The position numbers and the translations under genes are program-made. Positions 8,519 to 16,157 of a DNA stretch of 64,000 bases are shown here, in pieces. Origin of the DNA: Chloroflexota bacterium (GTDB lineage: Bacteria > Chloroflexota > Anaerolineae > Anaerolineales > UBA11579); NCBI GenBank assembly GCA_018662365.1, contig JABJGH010000006.1, positions 1 through 64,000 of the forward strand. Reading direction: 5' to 3'. Position 1 is the stretch's first letter; each line of letters starts with the position of its first letter. The notes beneath the pieces were generated by a model. It was not told the DNA's origin and searched no databases. It saw only the letters and a program-made list of their open reading frames with translations.

Positions 8519-8773
8519 CTACGCAGGCGAGGCTACAGATTGAGTTTTCTTTACTTTTGCTTCTCGATAAACAGTTAGGGCTGCATCAGGGCAAACTACT
8601 GCACATATCGCACAGCCTGTACAACCTGGTCCTGTTAAATTTACGGGGTGATAACCCTTTGAGGTAATTGTTTGCTGATCAATGGCAAGTACGTCCTGGG
8701 GACAAGCTGGTATACAAAGCTCGCAACCTTTGCAATACTTTTCATTGACTTCGATCCATCCCTTTGCAGGCAC
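8519..8773 (-). CDS. 2-oxoacid:ferredoxin oxidoreductase, delta subunit (2x[4Fe-4S])
   Basis: An 84-residue ferredoxin-like subunit with two complete four-Cys motifs, CKGCELCIPACP and CTGCAICAVVCP. It is the first gene of the operon and would carry electrons from the TPP site to free ferredoxin. Twelve bases separate it from the alpha subunit. AGGAGGC-type ribosome-binding sequence lies upstream of the ATG. Confidence 0.93.
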   Translation of the reverse strand: MPAKGWIEVNEKYCKGCELCIPACPQDVLAIDQQTITSKGYHPVNLTGPGCTGCAICAVVCPDAALTVYREAKVKKTQSVASPA

Positions 8774-8874
8774 AGTAAAGCCTCCTTATTTGGAAAATCG
8801 GATAATATGGAGTATATATAGCGTTTTATTACTTAATTATTTTCTCGCAGGTGGCTCGTTTTGTGGAGTGACAA

Positions 8875-8955: not shown

Positions 8956-9864
8956 TCATGCTAAGAAAATTATTGCCACGCCAACGAGTGAAATTACGGT
9001 TCCGAGGATACTTTGGAAATTTACTTTTTCTTTAAAGAAGTAAATGCTGATTGGAATTAAGAATATGGGGGGCAAGGATTGGAGAGTGCTAGAAATGCCA
9101 AGTTCTGTATTTTGAACAGATACTAATGAGAGCCAAACGCCTAACATTGGACCAATCAATGATGCGATAAAAATTAGCTTTAATGCGTTCGGATTTTCTC
9201 GGATGGTCTTAATTGTTTCTTTTCCTTTTCGAATAAGTAGCGTCCAGATCCAGATAGAAATTGTAGCAGCCAGCATGCGGATGATCTGTCCTGAGAGGGC
9301 AGGGAAGCCATCAATGAGTCCCTTTTTTGCAGTAAATAAACCGATAGCTTGGCCAGCAGCACCAAGCACGGCAAAAGCAATTCCCCATAAATATTTTTTT
9401 CTGTCTGCAATTTTATTGTCGCCATTTTCCTGATTTGAAACGACCCAGCTTATCCCACCAAGGGTAATTATAATTCCGATGATCTGCATGAGGCCGAGCG
9501 TTTCATCAAGAAACATCCAACCTAAACCAATGCCGATTACTGGAGAAAGTGCAAAGATCAACATTGTTAGGCGAGGTCCGAGATTGATCAACGCTTGGAA
9601 AAGGGCAGCGTCGCCAAGGGTTAGGCCAATGACTCCAGAAAGCCCTAACCATAGCCAACGAAATCCTTCAATTTCGGGGGGGAGTAAATTTCCATAGGCG
9701 ATCCAATGAACGATGAGCAATAGAAAAACTGCAATTACCAAACGGGTTCGGTTCACGATCACCGAGCCGACTGATTTACCAGCCAAGGTGAAAAAGGTGG
9801 GGCCAATAGAAAAACAGATCGCAGTGCCGATGGCAGCAAGCTCGCCAATTGTTTTTAATGTCAT
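8956..9864 (-). CDS. EamA/DMT-family transporter
   Basis: A 302-residue membrane protein with about ten hydrophobic segments in two repeated halves, the normal build of the drug/metabolite transporter superfamily. The first half has GLSGVIGLTLGDAALFQALINLGPRL and the second ends with the family-typical VISLVGVAIIFLA. The substrate is unknown. It follows the ROK kinase by 6 bases and is probably co-transcribed, so a sugar or sugar-derived substrate is possible but not shown. Confidence 0.88.
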   Translation of the reverse strand: MTLKTIGELAAIGTAICFSIGPTFFTLAGKSVGSVIVNRTRLVIAVFLLLIVHWIAYGNLLPPEIEGFRWLWLGLSGVIGLTLGDAALFQALINLGPRLTMLIFALSPVIGIGLGWMFLDETLGLMQIIGIIITLGGISWVVSNQENGDNKIADRKKYLWGIAFAVLGAAGQAIGLFTAKKGLIDGFPALSGQIIRMLAATISIWIWTLLIRKGKETIKTIRENPNALKLIFIASLIGPMLGVWLSLVSVQNTELGISSTLQSLPPIFLIPISIYFFKEKVNFQSILGTVISLVGVAIIFLA

Positions 9865-10883: not shown

Positions 10884-12002
10884 CTAATAGTTTATTCTTT
10901 TGTCATCCATTGTAGTTAAATATTTTCTGCTAATAATTGTATCTGTGCCATGTAATTCAAGAAATTTGTCCACTACTTTTGGATCAAAATCAATACCCTT
11001 TTTTGATCTTAAATATTGGTCTACTTTTACCTTTGCGAATTTTTTTCTGTAAGGGCGATTAGAGTTTAATGCGTCCCAAACATCTACCACGGCAAATATT
11101 CTCGCAGCAAGGGGGATTTGTCTTCCTTTTAGTTGGAAAGGATAACCGGTTCCTGACCATCTTTCATGATGGAACATGGGGATATCTAATATGTCTTGTG
11201 ATAATTCAAGACTTGATAATAGTTCGCGAGCAATACTGGGATGGAGCTTCATGATCTGCCACTCTTCTTTCGAGAGGGGACCTTTTTTCTGAAGAATATT
11301 ATTATGGATGACTAATTTGCCGATATCGTGCAGTAATGCCCCATTTTTAATTGATTCCACCTCATCGTCGGGTAAACCCAGGTTAATTGCTAGCTCTTGC
11401 GCTAAACGGGCTACACGAACGGTATGTTCCTCGGTTTCCTTATCTCGAAGGTCCAACAATTTTACCCATTGGGAAATTATTTCGTCCTTGGCAATGCTTT
11501 TGGATTGATATTCAATGGTTTCTTTTATGGCCTCGATCAATTGTTTTGATCCGGGATAAAGGTCGAATGGGTTATCACTTATTTGGGGTTTGTTGCCATT
11601 TTTGTAAAACATGAACCAATAGCCGGCTGTGTTTAGATAATCACTAATTTTAAAGACCCTAAAAGAATTGAAATTTTCTAGGTCGACATAGCCTTCTAAT
11701 GAGAGCATATTATCCATGTCTAGGATTATGGGATCGTTACTTTTTTCTTGGGTTGCTAACTTCTTGGTGAACTCAATGCATAAATTTGAAAAAAACTTTT
11801 CGTCGAGTTTTCCATTTGTTTCAAATCCTGCCCGGGAGTTAATGAAATATTCCTCAGGTGTTTTTTCAAATAGAATTACACTTGCATCTATATGATGCTG
11901 TTTTAAAACTATTGAATGAATCGAATCCGAGAACAAAACTCCCGCGAGGGGAAGAGGAATCGTTTCAATTACAATGTTTTCACTGAGGATACCCATAGGC
12001 AT
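10884..12002 (-). CDS. HD-GYP domain protein (putative cyclic-di-nucleotide phosphodiesterase)
   Basis: A 372-residue protein. The first ~170 residues match no domain I recognise. The C-terminal HD-GYP domain has LLHDIGKLVIHNNILQK, HHERWSGTGYPFQLKG (the HHE...GYP part) and VVDVWDALNSNRPYR. Family knowledge: such domains degrade cyclic di-GMP or cGAMP at a di- or trinuclear metal site. It is the last gene of the micropeptide locus and would give that locus a second-messenger output. No signal peptide or membrane segment is seen, so it is likely cytoplasmic. ATG 11996 is an alternative start. Confidence 0.9.
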   Translation of the reverse strand: MPMGILSENIVIETIPLPLAGVLFSDSIHSIVLKQHHIDASVILFEKTPEEYFINSRAGFETNGKLDEKFFSNLCIEFTKKLATQEKSNDPIILDMDNMLSLEGYVDLENFNSFRVFKISDYLNTAGYWFMFYKNGNKPQISDNPFDLYPGSKQLIEAIKETIEYQSKSIAKDEIISQWVKLLDLRDKETEEHTVRVARLAQELAINLGLPDDEVESIKNGALLHDIGKLVIHNNILQKKGPLSKEEWQIMKLHPSIARELLSSLELSQDILDIPMFHHERWSGTGYPFQLKGRQIPLAARIFAVVDVWDALNSNRPYRKKFAKVKVDQYLRSKKGIDFDPKVVDKFLELHGTDTIISRKYLTTMDDKRINY

Positions 12003-12040: not shown

Positions 12041-12262
12041 CTATCCAGTGATAATTTGGTGTAGTTTGAGGATGAACTGATTTAAATTCTCAGCATTGAT
12101 ATCCATTACTGCTTGATGTACAGTTGCGGGAAGGGGATATTCTTGCAATCTTTTTGATCTTGTGCCAGTGAGAATTTCGGCTTTGAAATCTTCATCTAAT
12201 AATGATCGAGTTGCAATTGCGTTAATTTGTGTTCGAGCTGTGGTTGTGTTATAGGATAACAT
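12041..12262 (-). CDS. 73-residue protein resembling NHLP-clan RiPP leader peptides
   Basis: Small acidic/neutral protein with a strong ribosome-binding site (GGAGGAAG). The layout, I..IATRSLLDEDFKAEIL, then L.EYPLPATVHQAVMDI, then NAENLNQFILKLHQII, is what I remember of the Os1348/Franean1_4349 group of NHLP-clan leader-like proteins, which are frequent in Chloroflexota. That match is from memory and by eye. There is no obvious core peptide after the leader-like part and no modification enzyme beside it. It lies 58 bases after the second micropeptide gene and 38 before the HD-GYP gene, so a shared operon is likely. Alternative: an unrelated small helical protein. Confidence 0.55.
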   Translation of the reverse strand: MLSYNTTTARTQINAIATRSLLDEDFKAEILTGTRSKRLQEYPLPATVHQAVMDINAENLNQFILKLHQIITG

Positions 12263-12320: not shown

Positions 12321-12467
12321 TTACGATCCAGCTCCACCAGGGATGGGACCCGCGAAAGCGAAACCGGGGAAAAGTAATAAGGTGAATAGAATTGTTAGGA
12401 CCAATGCGAAGCGGAGCATTGTGAGGGCTTTGCCAGATACGAGTAAACTTGCGAGATTGTTTTTCAT
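12321..12467 (-). CDS. Secreted micropeptide, copy 2 (mature end GPIPGGAGS)
   Basis: A 48-codon gene. The product has a charged start (MKNNLASLLVSGKALTMLR), a hydrophobic stretch at residues 20-36, and a signal-peptidase-like AFA site after residue 39, leaving a predicted nine-residue peptide GPIPGGAGS. AAAGGAAA precedes the ATG. It is the tandem twin of the gene at 12509-12655: by hand alignment 22 codons differ without changing the amino acid and only residues 4-5 differ (NL versus KF). That pattern is strong evidence of translation under selection. I do not recognise the family. The alternative is a single-span membrane peptide that is not cleaved. Confidence 0.75.
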   Translation of the reverse strand: MKNNLASLLVSGKALTMLRFALVLTILFTLLLFPGFAFAGPIPGGAGS

Positions 12468-12508
12468 TTTCAAATTTCCTTTAATTAGATTGTTTTATAA
12501 AGATTATT

Positions 12509-12655
12509 CTAAGAACCAGCTCCACCGGGGATAGGGCCAGCGAAGGCGAAACCGGGGAAAAGCAGTAGGGTAAATAGAATTGTTAGAACTAAAGCGAAAC
12601 GAAGCATGGTTAGAGCCTTTCCTGAAACGAGTAAACTTGCGAATTTGTTTTTCAT
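12509..12655 (-). CDS. Secreted micropeptide, copy 1 (mature end GPIPGGAGS)
   Basis: A 48-codon gene with an excellent ribosome-binding site, GGAGGAAG. It encodes a basic N-terminus with Lys-2, Lys-4, Lys-13 and Arg-19, a hydrophobic core at residues 20-36, an AFA cleavage-like site, and the same nine final residues GPIPGGAGS as its twin. It is the first gene after the large SARP regulator, with a candidate SARP-type promoter upstream. A role as an exported signal sensed by the neighbouring TPR regulator is attractive but is inference only. The gene was probably missed by length cut-offs in automated gene calling. Confidence 0.78.
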   Translation of the reverse strand: MKNKFASLLVSGKALTMLRFALVLTILFTLLLFPGFAFAGPIPGGAGS

Positions 12656-12681
12656 TTTTATCTTCCTCCAGATATTGGTAA

Positions 12682-12717
12682 ATCATAAACTATACGTTAT
12701 GAACGCAGTTATGAACG
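12682..12717 (-). promoter_or_regulatory. Candidate SARP-dependent promoter of the micropeptide genes
   Basis: On the - strand, CGTTCATAAC occurs twice as a direct repeat with a 12-base period (12717-12708 and 12705-12696). The second repeat ends exactly 8 bases before a good -10 box TATGAT (12687-12682). There is no good -35 box. Family knowledge: SARP activators bind direct repeats (usual period 11 or 22) that end about 8 bases before the -10 and replace the -35. The fit is good apart from the period. Confidence 0.5.
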
Positions 12718-12803
12718 AAATCAGGTAATTTGTATTCTATTTTTAACAATAATGAAATTAATAATTTTTTTCACAAATCATTTCCCCCCAGAAATTTATT
12801 TAA

Positions 12804-15800
12804 TTATATATTTTTATAATATGTATCTAATTCTAAACTGGGCGATAGGCCAAGTTCAACCTGGATGTGATTTGAATAATCAATATAATGTTTTTTTGCA
12901 TCCTTAATCTTTAGTTCTGCAACCATGCATTTCATCAAATTTAAGTGATAATGATCTTGGTAGGGATCAATTTCAATTAACTGATCGTATAAGATTAAAC
13001 TCTCTGAGTAGTTCTTTTTTTCAAATTCTATTCTTGCAAGTTTTTCTAATATTCCTAGAAATTGATTGCGAATCTTGGTTCTTCTTTGATCTGCCCAGGG
13101 CATATCGATATCTGTAAGGTAATCGCCTTGGTAAAGTTCTAAGGCTTGTCTGAGTAAAATTCTTTCTTTTGTCTTATTTTGAGTTTCTCCTACTTGGTCA
13201 ACTAGTTGTTGGAATTGGTGTAAATCTGAGAATAATTTAATGTGGGGGTTTAGTTGATAATGCTCCTCCTTAAATTCGATCATGTGTTTCCCCCCTAATG
13301 CATTGCGAACGCGCCAAAGGACGGCATGAAAGTTACTGTTAATTTTTCCGGGCGAGAAGTCGGGCCAAAAGTCAAGAGCGATCTCTTCCTTGGTGACCCT
13401 CTTCCGATCAATCAAATAATGGAACATTGCCCTTGCGCCTGCGGAATGCCATAATTGATTTTCAATTAATTTTCCGTCTAACCTCACAGCGCCTTTGCCA
13501 AATGCTAATACTTGAAGTGAGGAAACAACTTTTGTGGTTTTTTCGGGTGGTTTAAATAGTTGATCTTTGGTTAATGGTTTTTTCTTAGATCGTTTAATTA
13601 GTGATTTTAATTGAGGAGAATCCCATTCTTTGGATAATTCTTCTAGGAAATCTTTGGGCTTCCTTGCTAGGGGAACCAAGAATTCATCAAAGCCAAGAGC
13701 TGCAGAATTTTGGAAAGCTATCTTAAGTTGATTTAATGCGGTTTCTTTTTCCCCAAGTAAAAAGGAAAGGTTTGCGTAATGGAAATATGTCTCTACTAAA
13801 ATTTGATCAGGTTGTGGGTCTTCCCCTAGACCTATAATTACCTTTTCAAAACAGGATTTCGCAAGATCATATTGCCCCATTGCCAAGTAAACTTTTCCAA
13901 AATTCTCCTGATGGACGGGAAGATCAAGCCCTTCTTTGTTCACCCGCGCGGTTTCTCTGATGTAAAAAAGTGCCTCATTGAAATTTTCAGAGAGGAAATT
14001 CAATTGCATTAATCCAGAAAAAATTTGGGCTTGACCCAAGGGATAACTAATGGATTCTGCTAATTTTAGGGCTTCTAAATATATTTTTTCAGCTTCCTCA
14101 TATTCCGATATATCTCGAAGAATATCCGCTTGGCCATTATAAACATGGACCAAATAATTATTGATTTGGAAAGTTTCGGCAATTTCAATTGCCTGAGCGT
14201 ACAGACGCCAGGCTTCTTTGAAATTTCCTAATAGAAAATGCAAATAAGCGTAATTATTTTTTACCATGGTGGTATTTGTATAATTTTTACGAATTTTTTT
14301 GCTTAACTCTAATGCTTCTCGATATGAACTCTGGGCTTCAAATATTCTTCCTGTTTCAACCCCAAAATACCCAACATCCGCTAATGTCATGATCAAATCA
14401 AAAATCTGATCATGGTTTTCGGTCAAATTCATTTCTTCACGAAATCCCTTAGCAGCATTCTCTAAAAAAGTAAAAGCATTATCCACTTCCCCCAAATAAA
14501 ATGAAGCGATTCCCTTTAATCTTTCTGCTTGGAACCAATAATGTTTTGTTAGTTCGTGCTTTATTGTTAGATCCTGAACGTCATCTGCAATACTTAAGAT
14601 TTTTTTGTAATCCCCAAAAGATCGATAAAGTATCCCCTTTGCATAGTATAAATTTGCAAGATTATTGTAATCTTTTAAATCTTTAATGAGGGGTTCAGCT
14701 AGATTCAGGAGCTCTTCACAGAGTGCTGGTTGACGGTTAGTAATCTTGGTTTTTCCGAGATCTAACAATAAAACGGGGGCTAAATGCCTGAGATCATTTG
14801 GATGGAGCAATTGCTGATACCAAGATTCAAGTAATTTTATTTGACCATTTAAATGAAATTGCCTTGAAGAGTTATTGATTACTTCTGCCGCAAGGTCTTG
14901 GAGACCCGCTTTAAAATAGTGAGAAATTGCATTTTCTGGTGAATCATTTTCTTTAAACCAGTCTGCAGCTCGTTGATTATATAATTTTACTTTTTCTGGT
15001 GAATTCTTTCCTAAAAAGGATTGGAGAAATTCAGAGAAAAGTTGATGGTAACGGTATGAGGCATCTGCCTTATTGTCAGAATCTGAGAGGAAGAGGTTTA
15101 ATTCTTCTAATTCTCTGATCATCGATTCCGAGTTATCCACTTCAAGCAAATAGTTTGCAAATTTTGAGGTGAATTGATCTGCAATAGAGGTGGCTAGCAT
15201 AAAGTCTTTTAATTCATCAGAAAGGGAACTTACGACCTCATTGGCGAGGTATTGATAGATATGTTCTCTGGCCCCCAAAATCTTTGGGATCTCAATCGTA
15301 GTGTTTTCTGTTCTAAGAGCAAGGAGGATTGCGATGATCCAACCTTCAGATTCTTCGATGATCCTTTGCGCGTGGTCGGGATGAAGGTCGATTTGATAAT
15401 ATTGACGGCATAGATCAATTAGTTCATTGGGAATAAAGGCAAGTTCTGAGGAACTAATGACAGATAGTTGTTCTTGGATGTAGAGGGCTGCAGTGGGGAT
15501 TCCATAAACCGATCTTGACCCGATCAATATTCTTAATTGATCAGGTAAAAATTCAAGAAATGTATCCATAAAGTCGTTGATCTCGGGATCATCACTAATA
15601 ATATGATAATCATCGATCACCATAATACTGTATAGGTCTATGGATTCTTCAATGATGGCGGCTAAAGAGATGGCAAGGGAACGAGGAGTGTGATCACCGG
15701 TCTGCGATAGACCTTCTTGATTGCTGCCAAAGGAGGGGATCTTTACTTGAAATGCTTGAACTAGGCTCTCATAAAAAGCTGCTAAACTCGTGTCCTGTTC

Positions 15801-15995
15801 TAAAATGCGATACCAGAATATCTCCGCGTCAACATCTTCAGCAAAATCAACGAGAAGTGTTGTTTTTCCATAACCAGCCGGCGCACAAATAAATGACAGT
15901 TTTCGGTGGATATTATTATGAAGAAGATCTAATAACCGAGCGCGCCGTAGTACTTTAAGATTTCGTTTTGGGATACGTATATTAATATCAGCCAT
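12804..15995 (-). CDS. STAND-ATPase/TPR/SARP transcriptional regulator
   Basis: A very large regulator (1063 residues from ATG 15995; a GTG four codons earlier is possible). Order: P-loop ATPase of the MalT/STAND type (CAPAGYGKTTLL near residue 40, MVIDDYHII near 125); a long helical middle with many TPR-like repeats (about 350-790, e.g. YRSFGDYKKIL, YLAMGQYDLAKSCFEKVI); an OmpR-like winged helix (about 820-900); and a bacterial transcriptional activation domain to the end. Family knowledge: the TPR region senses a ligand, the ATPase acts as a switch, and the winged helix-BTAD pair binds direct repeats. It transcribes towards the micropeptide genes, the obvious candidate targets. No signal peptide. 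Confidence 0.9.
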   Translation of the reverse strand: MADINIRIPKRNLKVLRRARLLDLLHNNIHRKLSFICAPAGYGKTTLLVDFAEDVDAEIFWYRILEQDTSLAAFYESLVQAFQVKIPSFGSNQEGLSQTGDHTPRSLAISLAAIIEESIDLYSIMVIDDYHIISDDPEINDFMDTFLEFLPDQLRILIGSRSVYGIPTAALYIQEQLSVISSSELAFIPNELIDLCRQYYQIDLHPDHAQRIIEESEGWIIAILLALRTENTTIEIPKILGAREHIYQYLANEVVSSLSDELKDFMLATSIADQFTSKFANYLLEVDNSESMIRELEELNLFLSDSDNKADASYRYHQLFSEFLQSFLGKNSPEKVKLYNQRAADWFKENDSPENAISHYFKAGLQDLAAEVINNSSRQFHLNGQIKLLESWYQQLLHPNDLRHLAPVLLLDLGKTKITNRQPALCEELLNLAEPLIKDLKDYNNLANLYYAKGILYRSFGDYKKILSIADDVQDLTIKHELTKHYWFQAERLKGIASFYLGEVDNAFTFLENAAKGFREEMNLTENHDQIFDLIMTLADVGYFGVETGRIFEAQSSYREALELSKKIRKNYTNTTMVKNNYAYLHFLLGNFKEAWRLYAQAIEIAETFQINNYLVHVYNGQADILRDISEYEEAEKIYLEALKLAESISYPLGQAQIFSGLMQLNFLSENFNEALFYIRETARVNKEGLDLPVHQENFGKVYLAMGQYDLAKSCFEKVIIGLGEDPQPDQILVETYFHYANLSFLLGEKETALNQLKIAFQNSAALGFDEFLVPLARKPKDFLEELSKEWDSPQLKSLIKRSKKKPLTKDQLFKPPEKTTKVVSSLQVLAFGKGAVRLDGKLIENQLWHSAGARAMFHYLIDRKRVTKEEIALDFWPDFSPGKINSNFHAVLWRVRNALGGKHMIEFKEEHYQLNPHIKLFSDLHQFQQLVDQVGETQNKTKERILLRQALELYQGDYLTDIDMPWADQRRTKIRNQFLGILEKLARIEFEKKNYSESLILYDQLIEIDPYQDHYHLNLMKCMVAELKIKDAKKHYIDYSNHIQVELGLSPSLELDTYYKNI

Positions 15996-16157
15996 AAATA
16001 TCTTCACTTTATTGTACTTGAATTGTATATAAAATTAGGCGGTCAATTCGGACAATATCATTCCAAATAAATGAGATTAGAGGGAATTTTTAGGAATATA
16101 GCCCCTAAATGGGCAAAATTATGGCTAATAATTGGTTGTTTATGAATAAGCCATGGA

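Follow-up and report, generated by a model that had tools for sequence, protein, structure and literature searches.

A candidate peptide-signalling module of STAND/TPR/SARP regulators and micropeptides in Chloroflexota

Two tandem genes of 48 codons, encoding almost the same protein, lie directly downstream of a 1063-residue regulator in the DNA of a Chloroflexota bacterium of the order Anaerolineales (assembly GCA_018662365.1, contig JABJGH010000006.1, positions 1 to 64,000; this 64,000-nucleotide stretch is referred to as the window). An earlier reading of the letters alone, the sequence-only reading, had proposed a nine-residue exported pheromone sensed by the neighbouring protein. The arrangement that it described, twin micropeptide genes beside a STAND/TPR/SARP regulator and ahead of a small protein and an HD-GYP gene, is confirmed by coordinates and domain searches. 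Judging from the sequences, we lean towards an autoinducing peptide circuit, in which the neighbouring regulator would be the receptor and turnover of cyclic di-GMP (c-di-GMP) one output. The genes run on the minus strand in the order regulator, twin 1, twin 2, 73-amino-acid (aa) protein and HD-GYP gene, with the following features:

12804-15995, minus strand: regulator gene, 1063 aa from ATG, 1067 from an upstream GTG
12694-12717, minus strand: candidate SARP-type operator, a 12-bp direct repeat, CGTTCATAACTG followed by CGTTCATAACGT, identified by sequence pattern
12682-12687, minus strand: -10 element TATGAT, exactly 8 bp past the second CGTTCATAAC
12665-12669, minus strand: Shine-Dalgarno GGAGG of twin 1, identified by sequence pattern
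12509-12655, minus strand: micropeptide twin 1, 48 aa; signal-like residues 1-39 at 12539-12655, predicted mature GPIPGGAGS at 12512-12538
12321-12467, minus strand: micropeptide twin 2, 48 aa; signal-like residues 1-39 at 12351-12467, predicted mature GPIPGGAGS at 12324-12350
12041-12262, minus strand: Os1348/NHLP-clan-like small protein, 73 aa, helical (orthologue profile matches, AlphaFold2 model)
10884-12002, minus strand: HD-GYP protein, 372 aa, with an HD_5 match; putative c-di-GMP phosphodiesterase

The regulator and the twin micropeptides

The regulator consists of a MalT-like STAND N-terminus, a TPR superhelix (TPR domain at about residues 405-805) and a C-terminal SARP unit, i.e., a winged helix-turn-helix (wHTH) with BTAD. 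Pfam searches return BTAD (1.1e-18) and TPR_12 (2.9e-25), a MalT model matches residues 10-404 at 2.7e-66 but below its cut-off, and the STAND module matches MalT 8bob in phmmer (1.4e-31). With Foldseek, the AlphaFold2 model (predicted local distance difference test, pLDDT, 86) finds MalT 8bob (TMt 0.82) and the SARP domain of AfsR (8k60, TMt 0.76), the latter together with the BTAD match giving the OmpR-type wHTH plus BTAD of SARP activators, so that the ATPase/TPR/SARP composition named in the sequence-only reading is borne out. The protein is an equivalog of neither relative, as it reaches 224 bits against a cut-off of 537 for MalT (NF003420) and ends in a SARP rather than a LuxR-type HTH, and scores 47.8 bits against a cut-off of 1430 for AfsR (NF053617), whose domain order is the reverse.

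The twins differ silently in 22 sense codons and the stop codon, and nonsynonymously in two codons only (4 and 5), while both end in PGFAFA followed by GPIPGGAGS, as first described, with a hydrophobic segment and an A-x-A site ahead of the short tail. By Nei-Gojobori counts, the proportion of synonymous differences (pS) is 0.60 and that of nonsynonymous differences (pN) 0.019, and residues 6-48 carry 23 synonymous and no nonsynonymous changes. The strong selection initially suspected is thus visible in the counts, which support purifying selection on the micropeptide that retains amino acids and not nucleotides. The sequence occurs in its own genome at the two twin positions only, no Pfam or NCBIfam family matches it, and neither tblastn with the 48-aa peptide against 298 genomes of the class nor a contig scan of the genomes gave a convincing match outside its own family. 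The micropeptide is conserved by position and motif, and its relatives therefore had to be sought through the regulator and the 73-aa protein.

Conservation of the module and its promoter

Orthologues of the regulator and of the 73-aa protein (hereafter Os1348-like, after the family that its orthologues resemble) adjoin each other, with a micropeptide gene between them in many genomes, and a profile search of 400 genomes of the phylum together with 40 further neighbourhoods found the arrangement more widely. The order regulator, micropeptide, Os1348-like protein and often HD-GYP is conserved in the own family, where tails include GPIPGGIGG, GPSPGGIGG, GFAGGSPGG, GPGTGAT and DGPSPGPVGG, and across the phylum, where GAPEDGGGVGR, GAPVGGSGF, NPPMDGGSPT and KAPSDGGGGPF were among those found. 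Named hosts include Anaerolinea sp. metagenome-assembled genomes (MAGs) and Thermanaerothrix daxensis GNS-1, while MAGs of Dehalococcoidia and SAR202 have short, glycine-poor tails (QSPLF, GNWD). The linkage to SARP regulators proposed from the window is therefore phylum-wide, and the condition named as refuting it, an absence of homologues beside such regulators in other genomes, does not hold. The tblastn search suggested for finding it recovers only family members, and the neighbouring genes were needed to reveal it. Set against the propeptides of RRNPPA systems (10-100 aa, secreted, adjacent to the regulator), the 48-aa twins carry a hydrophobic segment and an A-x-A site, and the micropeptides of three lineages are leaderless.

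A strict detector, which calls either a hydrophobic 12-mer followed by a G/P-rich tail of 5-30 residues or a Gly-rich triple repeat, was positive in 34 of 46 gaps between regulator and Os1348-like gene, compared with one of the 46 antisense gaps and two of 319 control gaps after other long open reading frames of the same loci; these counts come from loci that share descent and from a detector designed once family examples were known. Loci that it misses can still carry conserved short peptides, e.g., TIRFSCPPGAPPPGGGGWS and TIRFTCPPGAPPPGGGGWF in two genera. All 44 micropeptide ATGs examined are preceded by a Shine-Dalgarno-like 4-mer, against 14% of random ATGs. A downstream HD-GYP gene was found at 37 of the 54 regulator plus Os1348-like loci with room for one, and at one of 20 regulators without an Os1348-like gene. 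The window protein matches HD_5 at 6.5e-31, which agrees with the first annotation of this gene, and contains both LLHDIGKL and HHERWSGTGYP, the motifs of an HD-GYP domain, making it a putative c-di-GMP phosphodiesterase output.

SARP operators are built of 11-bp repeats whose 3' copy lies 8 bp from the -10 element (PMC10936776). In the window, the predicted site runs CGTTCATAACTG, CGTTCATAACGT, TATGAT, GGAGG and ATG, with the 8-bp rule kept exactly, and spacings of 12 or 11 bp are found across the loci. Within 300 bp past the regulator stop at 84 loci, direct repeats of period 12 occur at 32 (2.0 expected), those of period 11 at 16 (2.1 expected), and 11/12-bp repeats followed by a suitably spaced TANNNT -10 at 36 (0.48 expected), where many of the 84 are related, a few are duplicates and some periodic signals (L102, L104, L105) stem from coding repeats. 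The genome of the window has eight matches to GTTCATA-N5-GTTCATA when up to one mismatch is allowed, against none for the reversed pattern; besides the micropeptide locus, copies with a well-placed -10 precede genes for a TM-GAF-HD-GYP, a MASE3-GAF-HD-GYP and a metallo-beta-lactamase-fold protein. The genome has only seven HD_5 matches, and two HD-GYP genes besides that of the module lie behind operator copies. The micropeptide gene is, by this promoter geometry, probably a direct target of the regulator, in line with the control of the peptide gene assumed at the outset. One copy of the pattern, at G000:C9:23144 (L320), is perfect and is followed by the gene of a metallo-beta-lactamase-fold protein of 508 aa that contains a ComEC-like DVGQGDG motif.

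Several observations at related loci stand apart. A protein resembling aminoglycoside 6-adenylyltransferase (by eye) is encoded between regulator and micropeptide in genomes G305 and G308:

L095 8171-9061 and L096 85-669, module orientation: aminoglycoside 6-adenylyltransferase-like gene, by eye

In many Anaerolineales and some other loci (L121-L123, L158, L176, L179, L184-L186, L188), a gene for a DUF5317 membrane protein separates the micropeptide from the Os1348-like gene, PF17248 being confirmed for L122. In L108 the micropeptide plus Os1348-like cassette is tandemly duplicated (8629-8841 and 9219-9431), the Os1348-like copies being identical and one of the peptide arrays degenerate. Regulator relatives in L201, L204 (a Dehalococcoidia MAG) and L212 (SAR202) have no detectable Os1348-like gene, and the tails that accompany them are very short (QSPFF/QSPLF, encoded by twin genes, and GNWD). 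An IrrE/M78-like protein is encoded directly downstream of the Os1348-like gene in L115, L116 and L118 (for L116, Peptidase_M78 at E 2.8e-4, narrowly short of the cut-off). A separate Os1348-like branch in Chloroflexota families f82 and f118, with no same-strand SARP regulator before it, has a conserved SK(S/T)xGxGF-type tail (L163, L165, L166, L168-L170, L172, L173, L175, L189, L190, L192, L196).

Tail, receptor and competing explanations

The tail of the micropeptide is amplified repeatedly. Whereas G305 has a single tail, VLA followed by GPIPGGIGG, its relative G308 carries seven copies of [YF]GPIPGGVGG behind a signal-like segment, so that the repeats correspond to the predicted mature peptide, and the nine-residue unit read from the window finds support in a sister lineage repeating exactly such a unit. 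L162 has three LLANPPVGGGSSAT, and leaderless tandem arrays occur in one genus (G306, G309, G312-G320), in the pair L183/L228 and in Thermanaerothrix (L264; 4x PQASGDISR in T. daxensis GNS-1), the units of the latter two being joined by Arg-Arg. On the regulator tree (FastTree), the leaderless form needs three separate changes. The seven units of L096 have pS 0.34 and pN 0, the four of L264 pS 0.78 and pN 0, with copies picked by exact motif, which biases pN to 0, most strongly where the motif fits some copies only (L228). Whole-gene tandem duplicates recur as well (the window, L188, L201, L204, L216). Because the tail was amplified in tandem up to sevenfold, and on three independent occasions in forms that have no signal sequence, the short tail is, as read from these arrays, the unit under selection.

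The TPR region of the regulator, which might sense such a peptide, evolves fastest (mean identity 0.25, against 0.37 for STAND and 0.32 for SARP). In partial Mantel tests, which are liberal under shared ancestry, tail similarity weakly follows TPR identity with STAND and SARP controlled (r 0.19, p 0.001) and does not correlate with STAND identity (r -0.07), a pattern that is no more than suggestive of a TPR role in peptide sensing. In RRNPPA systems the mature peptide enters through Opp and is bound in the TPR groove; here, oligopeptide-binding SBP_bac_5 proteins in all 24 of the 24 family genomes offer a possible route of peptide import.

An autoinducing circuit is the most economical account of these observations. 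The regulator would bind to the direct repeats that overlap the -35 region of the micropeptide promoter, and would turn on the micropeptides, the Os1348-like protein, the HD-GYP enzyme and a small number of distant genes that share this operator. The precursor would be inserted through Sec and cut after A-x-A, yielding a short Gly/Pro-rich peptide (here GPIPGGAGS), which would act back on the neighbouring regulator as its receptor, a change in c-di-GMP being one output. Gene order, translation signals, purifying selection, operator/-10 geometry and repeated tail amplification are the parts supported by sequence, while export, cleavage, import, binding, the sign of the peptide's effect (activation or inhibition) and what the Os1348-like protein does are parts that we infer. 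Several points weigh against this circuit. Three lineages encode repeats without a signal sequence, so that Sec export is not general and "exported" cannot be assumed everywhere; about one third of loci have no HD-GYP gene; regulators L208-L210, L213, L214, L217, L223, L241 and L248 have neither micropeptide nor Os1348-like gene; in the same liberal Mantel tests SARP identity also correlates with tail similarity, if more weakly (r 0.12, p 0.011); and a looser operator search of the own genome, with three mismatches, is at noise (eight matches against 13 in the control).

The main rival is a one-way output circuit like that of AfsR and AfsS, in which the regulator responds to some other signal and the micropeptide, as its output, serves as a downstream effector without feedback. 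It arises because in that pair, for which no peptide signalling is known, a large SARP drives a small protein built of repeats: AfsR (SARP-NOD-TPR) directly activates afsS, which encodes a 63-aa protein with three 12-aa repeats, and here, too, a large SARP appears to control an adjacent small, often tandem-repeat gene via direct repeats. Leaderless micropeptides would also suit an intracellular effector. However, most lineages combine a signal-like hydrophobic segment with a short tail, as befits an exported signal, and tail similarity follows the TPR domain specifically, which leaves the one-way circuit unlikely, if a serious contender. Alternatively, the micropeptide could be an uncleaved, membrane-anchored microprotein that regulates envelope stress or a partner protein. 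The whole precursor, including its signal-like part, is constrained between the twins, and the region ahead of the hydrophobic stretch is long (~20 residues), but three lineages have dropped the hydrophobic part entirely and multiplied the tail, and the tail is also what is duplicated in G308 and L162, so we rank this explanation lower, as improbable.

A locus for a ribosomally synthesised and post-translationally modified peptide (RiPP) or bacteriocin, in which the micropeptide, the NHLP-clan protein or both are precursors of a modified antimicrobial peptide, is brought to mind by the Os1348-like protein, as Os1348 has been linked to antibiotic activity. The window protein, called leader-like in the sequence-only reading, has no Pfam or NCBIfam match, whereas its orthologues match NF038399 (NH_RiPP_Os17, Os1348 NHLP clan) with E values between 4e-4 and 3e-8, the best (33.6 bits, E 3.1e-8) remaining below the curated cut-off of 40 bits. 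Its five-helix AlphaFold2 model (pLDDT 85) has no significant Foldseek match, a profile search of the PDB weakly finds 6LK7 (E 0.04), an 85-aa "nitrile hydratase alpha chain" that we take to be Os1348, and a plasmid search with the 73-aa protein gave no match. NHLP-type RiPP precursors have a C-terminal core and maturation enzymes nearby, but the Os1348-like protein ends with a helical domain, with no core-peptide extension and no conserved core, and the conserved neighbours are the module itself, with no maturase, RiPP enzyme or peptide exporter recognised among neighbour genes that were not exhaustively annotated. As the operator, too, indicates regulation, a RiPP locus ranks low and is very improbable, and the Os1348-like protein may instead be a regulatory partner. 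A SecM-like arrest or attenuation leader monitoring Sec activity or translation for the downstream genes, as the signal-like N-terminus, Pro/Gly-rich C-terminus and genes in line might suggest, ranks low as well and is the least credible, since a single stall site would not account for duplicated genes, leaderless forms or as many as seven identical tail units, and conservation lies in amino acids, not nucleotides.

Relation to known systems and significance

The autoinducing circuit that we favour has parallels in several described systems. AfsR-AfsS of Streptomyces (PMC10936776, PMC2267785) shares with it STAND/NOD, TPR and SARP domains, a small gene under direct repeats 8 bp from the -10 (its activation being predicted in Chloroflexota) and a small protein that may consist of short tandem repeats, AfsS being compared by description only (three 12-aa repeats). 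In contrast, the Chloroflexota regulator has the order NOD-TPR-SARP and a MalT-type N-terminus, its operator repeats are mostly 12 bp rather than 11 bp, and the small proteins mostly have a signal-like segment and are linked to Os1348-like and HD-GYP genes. A search for the AfsR family among the control genomes found no Streptomyces locus. MalT-family regulators have the N-terminal STAND module and MalT-like TPR region in common with the Chloroflexota protein, which differs in its SARP in place of a LuxR-type HTH, its neighbourhood and its presumed ligand, a peptide rather than maltotriose. The Os1348 family (NF038399; Os1348 of Pseudomonas sp. Os17, PMC7726476) shows profile similarity to the 71-105-aa neighbour protein, yet the Chloroflexota proteins consistently lie beside a SARP regulator and a micropeptide, with no RiPP maturation genes recognised.

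In Bacillota, quorum sensing by peptides that act on intracellular TPR receptors has been documented (PMC10075063, PMC11343458). RRNPPA systems likewise place a TPR regulator, there cytoplasmic, beside a small propeptide gene with a short C-terminal peptide, and tandem pheromone copies in one propeptide, of which up to eight are known, are functional there (PMC11343458). The comparison with RRNPP regulators drawn at the outset is reduced to analogy, as the candidate receptor is a 1063-aa STAND/SARP protein of another family and phylum, leaderless repeat forms exist and the propeptide gene apparently lies under a SARP box. RRNPP_detector is restricted to Bacillota and to receptors of 250-500 aa with peptide-binding TPRs (PMC10075063), so that it would have missed the present system. 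The system is neither RRNPPA nor AfsR/AfsS and combines features of both. The belief that the arrangement had not been described agrees with the openly licensed literature, in which we found no description of it and nothing relevant on SARP, MalT or STAND peptide pheromones in Chloroflexota.

More tentatively, the module may represent a new family of peptide quorum sensing across Chloroflexota, a phylum often met in soil, sediment and wastewater, with STAND/TPR/SARP receptors of ~1070 residues, self-encoded and mostly Gly/Pro-rich peptides of 4-19 residues, unit copy number as a means of tuning and c-di-GMP turnover as output. To judge by current evidence the peptides are unmodified; they are also short and easily synthesised, which makes the claim directly testable. 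If true, it would provide a large STAND/SARP regulator with a self-encoded candidate ligand and a context for some orphan Os1348-like proteins, and would make a peptide role worth seeking in the long-puzzling AfsR-AfsS pair.

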